NCBI RefSeq assembly: GCF_022768985.1 | Contig: NZ_JALEKL010000004.1 | Span: forward strand, 124,001 to 188,000 | Length of the DNA stretch: 64,000 nt | Origin: Methanosphaera sp. | GTDB taxonomy: Archaea > Methanobacteriota > Methanobacteria > Methanobacteriales > Methanobacteriaceae | Direction of reading: 5' to 3' | Shown here: positions 29,369 through 36,574 of the stretch, in pieces | Numbering within the stretch: position 1 is the first letter of the stretch | Layout: every line of letters starts with the position of its first letter | Program-made: the position numbers and the translations under genes | The notes under the pieces: model-generated | What the model saw: only the letters and a program-made list of their open reading frames with translations | Told to the model about the DNA's origin: nothing | The model's database searches: none

Positions 29369-30095
29369 ATGCGAGATAAAATGAAATCACCACTACTAAT
29401 TGCAGTAGTTATAATTGCTATAATTGCAATAGTTGGAATATATTCATTTGCCACAGCCCAGACATACTCAAATGTAACAATGGATGGAGTTAAATGTGAA
29501 GTACCAAAGGCAAACATAACAACACAAAAAGTAGATAACTACCAAATCTATGATGATAAGCAAAACAACTTCAAAATAGTAGTATATGACCTACTTGAGG
29601 AAGATCCACAATTTAATGAACTTAAAAATACAGCACAACAATGCAACAGCAGTAACAAAAGGAAATCTAACATATAATAAAACCTCATCAGGACTATGTA
29701 GCTTCTATAAAAACTATGAAAACAGGTATGTGCTAATTACAACAACAAATGAAGATGTAATGAAACATGTACTTGAAACACTAAGTGTAACACCACTAAA
29801 AATTGATGACATACTAAATTCAAACGATACAAACTCAACAAATGATCAACTAAAACAACAAGCACAAGCAGCAGTAAAGTCAGCAAAAGCAAAAGGTGGA
29901 GCAAAACAATACACATCAGGAGATGATGGATACTTCTACTCACCACAACATGATGAATACATTAAACATTATACAGGAAAAGATGGTCTTGATCATGTAA
30001 AAGGAAAAAGTGGATGGGATCAATCATACGATCCAAACACAGGGTACATGACAACAAAAGATAAAGATGGAAATGTATACTATGATGAGATGTAA
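29369..30095 (+). pseudogene. Frameshifted surface protein, paralog of the next gene
   Basis: The N-terminal part (from ATG 29369, with GGGAG upstream) encodes a basic start, a membrane helix ending in Ala-Thr-Ala-Gln and an extracellular domain. Near 29641 two A residues are missing relative to the next gene (AACAATGC versus AACAAAATGC), so the frame ends early at 29677 while the rest continues in another frame to 30095. Joining the frames gives about 241 residues. The rest is well preserved, so the lesion is recent, an assembly error, or a switchable tract. It is unlikely to make the full protein as given. Confidence 0.75.
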
Positions 30096-30116
30096 CAAAG
30101 AAAGGGAGATTATATT

Positions 30117-30866
30117 ATGCGAGATAAAATAAAACCACCATTAATAATTGTTGCTGTTATCATCATAGCACTTGCTATTGCTGGTGTCTATTCATTTGCC
30201 ACAGCCCAAACATATACTAATGTTACAATGGATGGAGTTAAATGTGAAGTTCCAAAGGCAAATATTACAACACAGAAAGTTGACAATCACCAGATATATG
30301 ATGATAAAGAAAATAACTTTAAAATTGTAGTATATGACTTAGTGGAGGATGATCCACAATTTAATGAACTTAAAAATACAGCACAACAAAATGCAACAGC
30401 AGTAACAAAAGGAAATCTAACATACAATAAAACCTCATCAGGGCTATGTAGCTTCTATAAAAACTATGAAAACAGGCATGTACTAATTACTGCAGCTGAT
30501 GAAAATATTATGCAACATGTACTTACAACACTTGATGTTACACCACTTAAAATTGATGATATTCTAAATTCAAATGATACAGATAATTCAACACTAAATT
30601 CTCAGCAAAAACAACAAGCACAGGCTGCTGTAAAATCATCATCAAAAGCATCAAAAAAATCTAGTAGTGGTAAATCATCCTCTGGTGGAGATGATGGATA
30701 TTATTATTCTCCACAAGCTGAAGATTATATTCGTGAATATACTGATAGTAATGGTGTACAACATACTCAAGGTAAAGGTGGATGGCACGAATCATATAAT
30801 CCAAAAACAGGATATATAAAATATACAGATAAACATGGAAATAGTTATTCTGATTACTTTAATTAA
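30117..30866 (+). CDS. Membrane-anchored extracellular protein (intact paralog)
   Basis: A 249-residue protein: basic start, one hydrophobic helix (about residues 9-27), then an extracellular domain with Asn-Val-Thr, Asn-Ile-Thr, Asn-Ala-Thr and Asn-Lys-Thr sequons. A Ser/Lys-rich linker near 185-203 leads to a C-terminal repeat-like domain rich in Gly, Tyr and Asp (Asp-Asp-Gly-Tyr-Tyr-Tyr-Ser-Pro; Gly-Gly-Trp). GGGAG precedes the ATG. It lies 21 bases after its frameshifted paralog. Known-family assignment is not possible by eye; the architecture suggests a surface or adhesion-type protein. Confidence 0.7.
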   Translation: MRDKIKPPLIIVAVIIIALAIAGVYSFATAQTYTNVTMDGVKCEVPKANITTQKVDNHQIYDDKENNFKIVVYDLVEDDPQFNELKNTAQQNATAVTKGNLTYNKTSSGLCSFYKNYENRHVLITAADENIMQHVLTTLDVTPLKIDDILNSNDTDNSTLNSQQKQQAQAAVKSSSKASKKSSSGKSSSGGDDGYYYSPQAEDYIREYTDSNGVQHTQGKGGWHESYNPKTGYIKYTDKHGNSYSDYFN

Positions 30867-33500: not shown

Positions 33501-33686
33501 TTAATATCCCATACGGAACATACTTGTAATTTTCTCAGCAAATGATTTTTTCTTTTTAGGTCCAGGAATTTTAACTGCATAGCCACAATTAGGACAAAGA
33601 ACTAAATCTCCACCACAACCACAGTTACAATCAAGGTTTTCTGCAGTTGATTCATCATATACTGTTCCACAAATTTTACATTCCAT
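33501..33686 (-). CDS. Small zinc-ribbon protein of the feo operon
   Basis: A 61-residue protein. It has Cys-Lys-Ile-Cys-Gly at the N-terminus, Cys-Asn-Cys-Gly-Cys near 20-24 and Cys-Pro-Asn-Cys-Gly near 32-36, enough for two metal sites, followed by a basic amphipathic helix (Lys-Lys-Lys-Lys-Ser-Phe-Ala-Glu-Lys-Ile). GGGAGG lies upstream of the ATG. It is related in layout to the next gene (33701-33910) and lies 14 bases downstream of it. The position at the end of feoA-feoB suggests a metal-handling or regulatory role in iron uptake, which is inferred from context only. Confidence 0.75.
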   Translation of the reverse strand: MECKICGTVYDESTAENLDCNCGCGGDLVLCPNCGYAVKIPGPKKKKSFAEKITSMFRMGY

Positions 33687-33700
33687 TACAGGTAGCCTCC

Positions 33701-33910
33701 CTAAGCTTTAAGTGATTCTTTAATTTTCTGCATAAATGATTTTTTATTATTATTTTTCATTGCTTTTTTACATGGTACTTCATGTCCACAGTTAGGACAA
33801 CGTATATTTTCTCCATGACATCCACCAAATGGACAACCACATTCACATGATTTTACAGTTTTAGGATCAAATCTACATCCACATAATCTGCATTGTAATT
33901 CTTCTACCAT
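33701..33910 (-). CDS. Small zinc-ribbon protein of the feo operon
   Basis: A 69-residue protein with Cys-Arg-Leu-Cys-Gly-Cys near 7-12, Cys-Glu-Cys-Gly-Cys near 23-27, Cys-His near 31 and Cys-Pro-Asn-Cys-Gly-His near 38-43, then a basic tail ending Lys-Ser-Phe-Met-Gln-Lys-Ile. The number and order of Cys match the next gene. GGAGAG precedes the ATG. It follows the two micro-ORFs by about 36 bases. Metal binding is very likely from the Cys pattern; the rest is context. Confidence 0.75.
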   Translation of the reverse strand: MVEELQCRLCGCRFDPKTVKSCECGCPFGGCHGENIRCPNCGHEVPCKKAMKNNNKKSFMQKIKESLKA

Positions 33911-33946
33911 ATTATTTTCTCTCCATTTAATTTATTTTTTTTTATT

Positions 33947-33991
33947 TTATTCTTTTTTGTTAGATTTTTTGGTATTTGCTCCACGTATCAT
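33947..33991 (-). CDS. Micro-ORF 2: 14-residue peptide in the feo operon
   Basis: A complete ORF encoding Met-Ile-Arg-Gly-Ala-Asn-Thr-Lys-Lys-Ser-Asn-Lys-Lys-Glu then TAA. A near-perfect Shine-Dalgarno, GGAGGTGA at 33997-34004, stands 5 bases before the ATG. The first nine residues are identical to those of the micro-ORF at 34030, with different codons at two positions. It lies between feoB and the zinc-ribbon genes. A peptide this short with so strong a ribosome binding site and a close paralog next door is unlikely to be chance; the function is unknown. Confidence 0.7.
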   Translation of the reverse strand: MIRGANTKKSNKKE

Positions 33992-34029
33992 ACTTTTCAC
34001 CTCCAAAGTTTTATTTTTTAAGATTAAAT

Positions 34030-34071
34030 TTAATCTTTATTATTTTTTTTAGTGTTTGCTCCACGTATCAT
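34030..34071 (-). CDS. Micro-ORF 1: 13-residue peptide in the feo operon
   Basis: A complete ORF encoding Met-Ile-Arg-Gly-Ala-Asn-Thr-Lys-Lys-Asn-Asn-Lys-Asp then TAA. GAGGTGA at 34079-34085 stands 7 bases before the ATG. It lies about 105 bases after the feoB stop and 38 bases before micro-ORF 2. The shared peptide (Met-Ile-Arg-Gly-Ala-Asn-Thr-Lys-Lys) and the basic, polar tail suggest either a functional micropeptide or a translated leader for the zinc-ribbon genes. Confidence 0.7.
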   Translation of the reverse strand: MIRGANTKKNNKD

Positions 34072-34177
34072 ATTTTTTTCACCTCATTAATTTAATTTAA
34101 AAATAATTTTTTTTGTTATAAGAAGAAAATTTTATAGGAGTATAAAAAAAATTAATTTTTATACTCATACTACTACT

Positions 34178-36181
34178 TTAGGTAAATCCTAGTAGTAGTC
34201 CTCCTTGGTATACTATGAATGCTGCTACATATGCTACAACACAACATGTTACAATACAGGCTGCTACCCATTTCCATGAGTTTGTTTCTTCTTTTATTGC
34301 TCCTAAACATGCAAAACATGGTACATATAAGAGTGTAAATACCATGAATGATAACGATGTTAGTGGTGTAAATAAGGCAGGTAACATTGTTCCTATTCCT
34401 TCTTCACCTACTCCGAAGAGTGTACCAAATGTTGATACTACACTTTCTTTTGCAAGCATACCAAATACTAATGCTACAGCTGCTTGCCAGTTTCCAAATC
34501 CTAGTGGTTGGAAGATAGGTGCTATGAAGCTTCCAATAATTCCAATAATACTGTTAGCTGATGCTTCTTCAACACCAAGTGGTAGGTTACTTAATATCCA
34601 TATAAGGATACAGGTTCCTAAAATTACTGTACCTGCTTTTTTAATAAAGAGTGATCCTCTTTCCCACATGTGAAGTAGTGCACTTTTAAGTGTTGGAATT
34701 CTATATGGAGGTAGTTCCATGATAAATGGTGCTTCATCATCTGAAAATACTGTTCCTTTGTATAATCTTGCAACTATAATTGCTACAATCATACCAAGTA
34801 TGTATAATCCAAATGTTACTTCTGTTTGATAGCTTTCAAAGAATACTGCTGTGAAAAGTGCATATATAGGTACTCTTGCACTACATGATATGAATGGTAA
34901 TGCAAGCATTGTTGAAATTCTGTCACTTTCATTAGATAATGTTCTTGTTGCCATAATACCTGTTACATCACATCCAAATCCTAAGATCATTGGGATGAAT
35001 GATTTACCAGATAGGCCCATTATTTTACTCATTGCACGGTCAATTACAAATGCTGCTCTTGCTAGATATCCTACATCTTCTATTAAACTTAACAAGAAGA
35101 ACAGTATGAATATAATAGGTATGAATGTAAGTACTGAACCTACTCCACCAATTACTCCATTTAGGATAAATGTTTGGAATGCTCCATCACCAAGTATTGG
35201 TGTTAAATATTCAATTAAACTACCGAATGCTTCATCAATTAAGTCTTGGAATGGTCCTCCTATTGTGTATGTTAGATAAAATACTAGATACATTACAATT
35301 AAAAATATTGGTATTCCAAGAATTCTGTTTGTTACAATTGAGTCAATTTTATCTGTTAATGTTTTCTTTTCACCTGCTGGTCTTGAAACTGCTTCTTTCA
35401 TTATTGAATTAATTTGACCGTATCTTGCTTCAATGAAAGCTTCATCAAGTTTTTGATGTACAATTTCACCAACATGTTCTTGAATCTTTCTTAGTTTAGG
35501 AAGATTATCTTTATCTGCTGATTTTTCTGCAAGTGCTATTACTTCTTCATCATCTTCAAGAAGTTTTACTGCTGTCCATGAATCTGGTGCAGATCCTACT
35601 TTTAGGTGTGGGAATAATGATTTTACTTCGTTTATATGATCATCTAATTCAAAACCATATGTAAGTGATGCTGCTTGATCTGATGGTTTTCTTGCAGCTT
35701 TAATTGCTGTTCTTATAAGTTCATTTAGTCCTTTACCTTCTCTTGCATCGATTACTACTATAGGTACTCCTAGAGTTTTTTCTAGTTTTTTAATGTTTAT
35801 TTTTAGTCCTGCATCTTCTGCATAGTTTAACATGTTAAGACCAATTACTGTGTTTGCTCCAGTTTCCATGATCTGTAATGTTAAGTAAAGGTTTCTTTGA
35901 ATGTTTTCTGCATCTATAATGTTTATTACTGCGTCGTTTTCTTCATGGATTATAGCATCTCTTGATACTTTTTCTTCTACAGAATATGGTGTTAGACTGT
36001 AGTTTCCAGGAAGATCTATTACTTCTATTTCATAGTTGTCAAGTTCGAATGTTCCTGACTTTTGTTCTACTGTTTTTCCTGGCCAGTTTCCTACGTGTTG
36101 TTTTAGTCCTGTAAGGTTGTTAAATACAGAACTCTTTCCTACGTTTGGGTTACCGGCTAGTAAGAATTTTATTTTTTCCAT
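34178..36181 (-). CDS. feoB: Ferrous iron transporter FeoB
   Basis: A 667-residue transporter. The N-terminal G domain has Gly-Asn-Pro-Asn-Val-Gly-Lys-Ser at 9-16 and Asp-Leu-Pro-Gly near 56-59. The G4 position reads Asn-Met-Leu-Asn near 116-119 where FeoB usually has Asn-Met/Lys-x-Asp. A helical guanine-dissociation-inhibitor region (about 170-270) is followed by about ten membrane segments in two Gate regions, with the conserved Gly-Phe-Gly-Cys-Asp-Val near 404 and Phe-Ile-Ser-Cys-Ser-Ala-Arg near 430. It imports Fe2+. AGAGGT lies before the ATG, and a palindromic iron-box-like site lies 18 bases upstream of it. feoA lies 169 bases upstream. Confidence 0.95.
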
Positions 36182-36198: not shown

Positions 36199-36214
36199 TT
36201 TAGGTATACCTAAA
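36199..36214. promoter_or_regulatory. Palindromic iron-box-like operator upstream of feoB
   Basis: TTTAGGTATACCTAAA is a perfect 16-base palindrome whose TTAGG/CCTAA halves resemble operators of DtxR-family metal regulators. It lies 18 bases before the feoB start codon, in the leader or core promoter. Confidence 0.65.
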
Positions 36215-36349: not shown

Positions 36350-36574
36350 TTATTGGAGTTCTATTGATTGAGCTTCTTCTTTACGTAGTGCAAGTGAGAA
36401 ACCTTGAACTCTGACTTCTAATGGATAGCCTAGTGGTGCTTTTCTTTTAAGTTCTATTGGTGTTCCTGATACAATACCCATTTCTTTTAGGTGTTTTGCA
36501 AGTGTTCCTGTTGCTTTGTAACTTTTGATAACTCCTTTTTCTCCAGTTTTTAAATTATCCACTGTTTTTGTCAT
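36350..36574 (-). CDS. feoA: FeoA-type SH3-fold protein
   Basis: A 74-residue FeoA. The pattern Gly-Glu-Lys-Gly-Val-Ile-Lys near 11-17, Leu-Lys-Glu-Met-Gly-Ile near 29-34, Gly-Thr-Pro-Ile-Glu-Leu near 37-42, Ala-Pro-Leu-Gly-Tyr-Pro near 46-51 and the Gly-Phe-Ser-Leu-Ala-Leu-Arg end match the family. It is thought to modulate FeoB. GGAG lies 8-9 bases before the ATG. The upstream region carries a TATA box flanked by two operator-like palindromes. Confidence 0.92.
   Translation of the reverse strand: MTKTVDNLKTGEKGVIKSYKATGTLAKHLKEMGIVSGTPIELKRKAPLGYPLEVRVQGFSLALRKEEAQSIELQ

Follow-up and report, generated by a model that had tools for sequence, protein, structure and literature searches.

The micro-ORF that follows the ferrous iron transporter gene feoB in the window (the whole stretch of 64,000 nucleotides of Methanosphaera sp. 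DNA that was analysed) is, judging from the pattern of nucleotide changes among its relatives, a real but unannotated gene whose encoded peptide is under purifying selection, most strongly at its N-terminal core. It is present here as a tandem pair, and its product is a putative partner of FeoB. The local gene order on the minus strand is feoB, micro-ORF 1, micro-ORF 2, then two CxxC zinc-ribbon genes, with the following features.

36350..36574, minus strand: feoA (PF04023, 3.7e-19)
36199..36214, no strand assigned: perfect palindrome TTTAGGTATACCTAAA, directly upstream of feoB (only exact match in the window)
34178..36181, minus strand: feoB, ferrous iron transporter (TIGR00437, 648 bits; FeoB_N, Gate and FeoB_C)
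34144..34151, minus strand: U8 run in the spacer separating feoB from micro-ORF 1, a possible partial transcription stop (sequence)
34024..34098, minus strand: tandem-duplicated unit, copy 1 (local alignment)
34080..34085, minus strand: Shine-Dalgarno sequence GAGGTG of copy 1 (sequence)
34030..34071, minus strand: micro-ORF copy 1, MIRGANTKKNNKD (sequence, positional comparison, codon test, randomisation)
33941..34016, minus strand: tandem-duplicated unit, copy 2 (local alignment)
33998..34004, minus strand: Shine-Dalgarno sequence GGAGGTG of copy 2 (sequence)
33947..33991, minus strand: micro-ORF copy 2, MIRGANTKKSNKKE (sequence, positional comparison, randomisation, alignment)
33701..33910, minus strand: CxxC zinc-ribbon protein 1, 69 amino acids (below cut-off for every Pfam and NCBIfam model)
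33501..33686, minus strand: CxxC zinc-ribbon protein 2, 61 amino acids (below cut-off for every Pfam and NCBIfam model)

The two micro-ORFs, 106 nt (copy 1) and 186 nt (copy 2) downstream of the feoB stop, encode nearly identical peptides and each has a strong Shine-Dalgarno sequence, just as originally predicted. Units of about 75 nt match end to end across the Shine-Dalgarno sequence, ORF and flank in local alignment, so the pair is a local tandem duplication, putatively a recent one. The first nine codons of the copies have two base differences, both silent, which the original prediction read as a sign of selection on the peptide; between tandem duplicates these prove nothing alone, and it is the comparison across species (below) that bears out such selection. 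Elsewhere in the window, adjacent ORFs of 169 and 249 amino acids (29586-30866) have long stretches in common (NATAVTKGNLTYNKTSSGLCSFYKNYENR...) and apparently represent a duplicated secreted or membrane-anchored protein. The palindrome TTTAGGTATACCTAAA is a candidate operator, probably for a metal regulator; feo genes of other genera in the same family have similar sequences ahead of them. Proteins similar to the zinc ribbons of the window (33501-33910) follow feoB in distant archaeal families (L247, L248 and L249), and the CxxC zinc ribbons found after feoB appear to form a widespread Feo accessory family that has yet to be named.

The nine N-terminal residues shared by the two copies, suggested as a probe for related feo operons, proved to be confined to the window's genome: an exact search of 100 genomes gave two matches, both in that genome, and a reversed-pattern control gave 0. 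This was the wrong test, because the conserved core is shorter, consisting of Ile-x-Gly plus basic or polar residues. Relatives were sought instead by position, as whatever reads downstream of feoB. The conservation in related feo operons on which the original prediction depended was then found: a micro-ORF of 10-17 amino acids, preceded by a Shine-Dalgarno sequence, follows feoB in 18/19 feoB-bearing genomes of the window's genus (the window counted), and MVSRGGIRGARKPVKPED-like peptides (MVSRGGIRGARKP...) of 15-18 amino acids, with the Shine-Dalgarno sequence GGAGGTG, are found in 8/8 genomes of a sister family (group f2/g18, which we take to be Methanothermobacter). The genus consensus is MIIGVNTKK...KK, with variants including MIIGVNTKKYPNKNKK (five genomes), MIRGVNTKKYHKKDDE, MIIGAKTKKK, MIRGIKNVRKNKKE and MIIGASPEVIKKIKKE, among others; Ile2 and Gly4 are invariant within the genus and the tails vary freely. 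One feoB-bearing member of the genus (G001) has no micro-ORF downstream of feoB.

Four other genera of the same family have longer forms (MRSKSGIRGVKIPKxDD); overall the gene is 10-33 codons long. Peptides such as MRSKSGIKGVKIPKNDED, MRSRSGIRGIKKPKDND, MKSRSYIKGIKLEENEEKDQDNQK and MTTKSGIIGIKNLNN are encoded after feoB in these other genera, directly so in g5, g6, g11 and part of g4 (g4, g10 and the like being anonymous genus labels; where the collection scan gives names, these are Methanobrevibacter and Methanobacteriaceae). One genome (G022; loci L095 and L118) has a second tandem pair of the peptide gene after feoB, MRSRSGIRGVKTPKDDE and MRSRSGISGVKTPNKK, a duplication independent of that in the window. 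The peptide is absent from the feoB loci examined in g2, g3, g7, g9, g10 and g14-g16, and is lost or decayed at most g4 loci. Four g4 loci, L169 (G144), L152 (G151), L161 (G149) and L175 (G174), have truncated (MRSKSGIKG*), diverged or remnant versions. Repeated loss in evolution indicates that the peptide gene is non-essential and that FeoB works without the peptide.

The family is apparently limited to Methanobacteriales. Among the other archaeal families that were sampled, none has such a peptide after feoB, and matches outside Methanobacteriales in an archaeal pattern scan have no adjacent feoB. A pattern for the long form, which covers neither the short forms nor those of the sister family, matched 6 Methanobacteriales and 2 others (Desulfamplus and Polaromonas) among 84,980 species; the latter two were rejected as likely chance matches, having no ribosome-binding site, with about 1 expected. 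Scans with Pfam and NCBIfam found no model for the peptide, a tblastn search of plasmids with two joined peptides as query gave no meaningful match, and no description of the peptide was found in the open-access literature, although it may have been published elsewhere.

Related micro-ORFs preceded by a Shine-Dalgarno sequence lie no more than 300 nt from the feoB stop at 49 of the 137 feoB loci of the class, versus 0.72 loci expected by chance per Markov randomisation; the motif rule was set post hoc, after the family was known, and g4 was sampled in part for matching the motif, which leaves the 18/19 and 8/8 above as the unbiased figures. Within the window's genus, which was sampled by position only, parsimony changes on the feoB tree number 11/12/35 at codon positions 1/2/3 (35 of 58 at the third; p = 2.3e-5), which answers the call for codon-level evidence, and this concentration at third positions points to a peptide-coding gene under purifying selection. 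The corresponding changes in feoB itself are 190/88/376. The pN/pS ratio of the peptide is 0.37 in the window's genus, where the column-permutation control yielded too few stop-free permutations to be usable, and 0.22 in the sister family, where the codon-position changes of 1/3/6 (p = 0.077) are suggestive only. For g4, the codon test (p = 3e-8) is biased because members were collected with an amino-acid pattern.

The upstream neighbour of the micro-ORF is nearly always feoB. The downstream neighbour differs: a zinc ribbon in most of the window's genus, an unrelated gene in G007, feoA in g4, and a convergent gene in the sister family, which has no close same-strand gene after the peptide. From these arrangements, the micro-ORF tracks feoB, not the downstream gene. 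The cis linkage is not absolute, as seen in two exceptions: in G138 the micro-ORF is upstream of its feoB, an order that we infer to have arisen by loss of the first feoB from a tandem pair like that of G142 (feoB-peptide-feoB-feoA), and in G035 (L124) a deletion fuses feoA with the final residues of feoB but spares the micro-ORF and the zinc ribbon.

The original prediction offered three roles for the peptide, of which putative partner of FeoB is the best; that of a secreted or metal-linked peptide is unsupported, there being no signal sequence and no Cys or His. The micro-ORFs are tandem copies of a small feo-locus gene of Methanobacteriales, which may encode a soluble, mostly basic peptide that adjusts the activity, assembly or stability of FeoB; more speculatively, such order-specific peptides of 10-33 residues could constitute a dedicated third Feo component in archaea, regulating FeoB in trans. 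Ribosomes finishing or following feoB would also make the short, soluble, mostly basic peptide, which would stay near membrane-bound FeoB, bind its cytosolic side (the G domain or the C-terminus), and exert this effect there, in the way that other small proteins act on their transporters. The Methanosphaera peptide would be a form reduced to the Ile-x-Gly core and a lysine-rich tail, and the window's genome would have a double dose of it through duplication. The micro-gene probably tunes iron uptake. Peptide charge is not constant: longer forms reach 0 and -4.

The mostly basic core would also suit a different partner (the zinc ribbon, FeoA, a regulator or RNA), the gene being beside feoB only for co-regulation. 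This is unlikely, although the zinc ribbon and feoA often share the locus, G035 keeps the peptide with the zinc ribbon still downstream after deletion of the adjacent feoB, and the peptide of the sister family is similar to an RGG motif, in line with RNA binding; against it, the sister family has neither zinc ribbon nor feoA adjoining the peptide, and zinc ribbons are often present without the peptide.

Strong Shine-Dalgarno sequences precede the micro-ORFs throughout, and in g4 many of these ribosome-binding sites overlap or directly adjoin the feoB stop. A T-run of at least five is present in the spacer between feoB and the micro-ORF in 18/19 genomes of the window's genus, with a stable hairpin before it only in some. 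Some transcripts in this genus may therefore stop short of the micro-ORF, which need not be expressed at the same level as feoB. At g4 loci, a hairpin and T-run (read by eye) lie downstream of the micro-ORF and are still there where it has decayed. A scan for sigma-70-type promoters, the wrong promoter type, found no excess.

The very short ORF, its strong Shine-Dalgarno sequence and its location directly upstream of zinc ribbons, both in the window and in the majority of the genus, are what a leader peptide or attenuator might look like, in which the act of translation, not the product, controls the following genes. This second role offered by the original prediction is contradicted by the variable downstream gene: it changes by lineage, is convergent in the sister family, and is not a zinc ribbon in G007, which has the micro-ORF nonetheless. 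A leader would be expected to have a constant downstream gene and alternative RNA structures, but the hairpin and T-run also shift from before the ORF in the window's genus to after it in g4, an Rfam scan gave no relevant riboswitch or leader, and conservation across families extends to the peptide sequence itself, all of which makes a leader improbable. The same hairpins and T-runs close by could suggest a conserved DNA or RNA element (a terminator or operator) that contains the ORF by accident, but this is very improbable given the third-position bias of changes, frames that remain intact across two families differing greatly in base composition, and the lack of an Rfam match. A C-terminal extension of FeoB by stop-codon read-through, suggested by ORFs directly after feoB (within 10 nt of its stop in g4), is excluded with near certainty by frame offsets to the feoB stop of 0, 1 or 2 modulo 3 in all three groups, and by the Shine-Dalgarno sequence and start that every ORF has of its own.

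ORFs of 13-18 codons escape gene finders and family libraries, yet this micro-ORF is conserved across two methanogen families; comparison of the intervals that follow a fixed marker gene can thus expose micro-genes invisible to similarity search. The regulation of archaeal FeoB and the replacement of FeoC are open questions (PMC8351635, PMC8749426). With a conserved peptide in the feo locus, these can be tested in methanogens in culture, for example Methanothermobacter, and if FeoB is indeed regulated in trans, the peptide would be among the shortest conserved transporter-regulating peptides known.

Among known systems, short bacterial leader peptides such as MgtL are similar in length and have strong Shine-Dalgarno sequences, but precede the gene under their control, whereas the feo micro-ORF is linked to the gene that precedes it. 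FeoC, a winged-helix protein of about 80 amino acids, is several times longer than the peptide; membership was rejected because there is no winged-helix match in Pfam or NCBIfam and the peptide is far too short. What the two have in common is a small gene 3' of feoB; FeoC acts as a cytosolic accessory protein (PMC8749426). The FeoB-associated Cys-rich protein (PF12669), of unknown function and found mainly in Firmicutes and Bacteroidetes, is likewise encoded by a small ORF directly downstream of feoB (PMC8749426), but is cysteine-rich, whereas the peptide has no conserved Cys or membrane span: the motif Cx3-5Cx2-3Cx6-8C is in no peptide found (at most one Cys, in G023), and four longer members did not match the PF12669 model at E<=1, the 13-18 amino acid forms being too short for the scan. 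The sP36 protein of Methanosarcina mazei (61 amino acids) binds the membrane transporter AmtB1 and tunes it (PMC10714827); both are small methanogen proteins, and the micro-ORF, like genes of sP36-like regulators, is a small ORF under purifying selection (by the codon test, with a strong Shine-Dalgarno sequence and predicted translation), but sP36 is longer and acts on a different transporter, so it serves as a functional precedent only.
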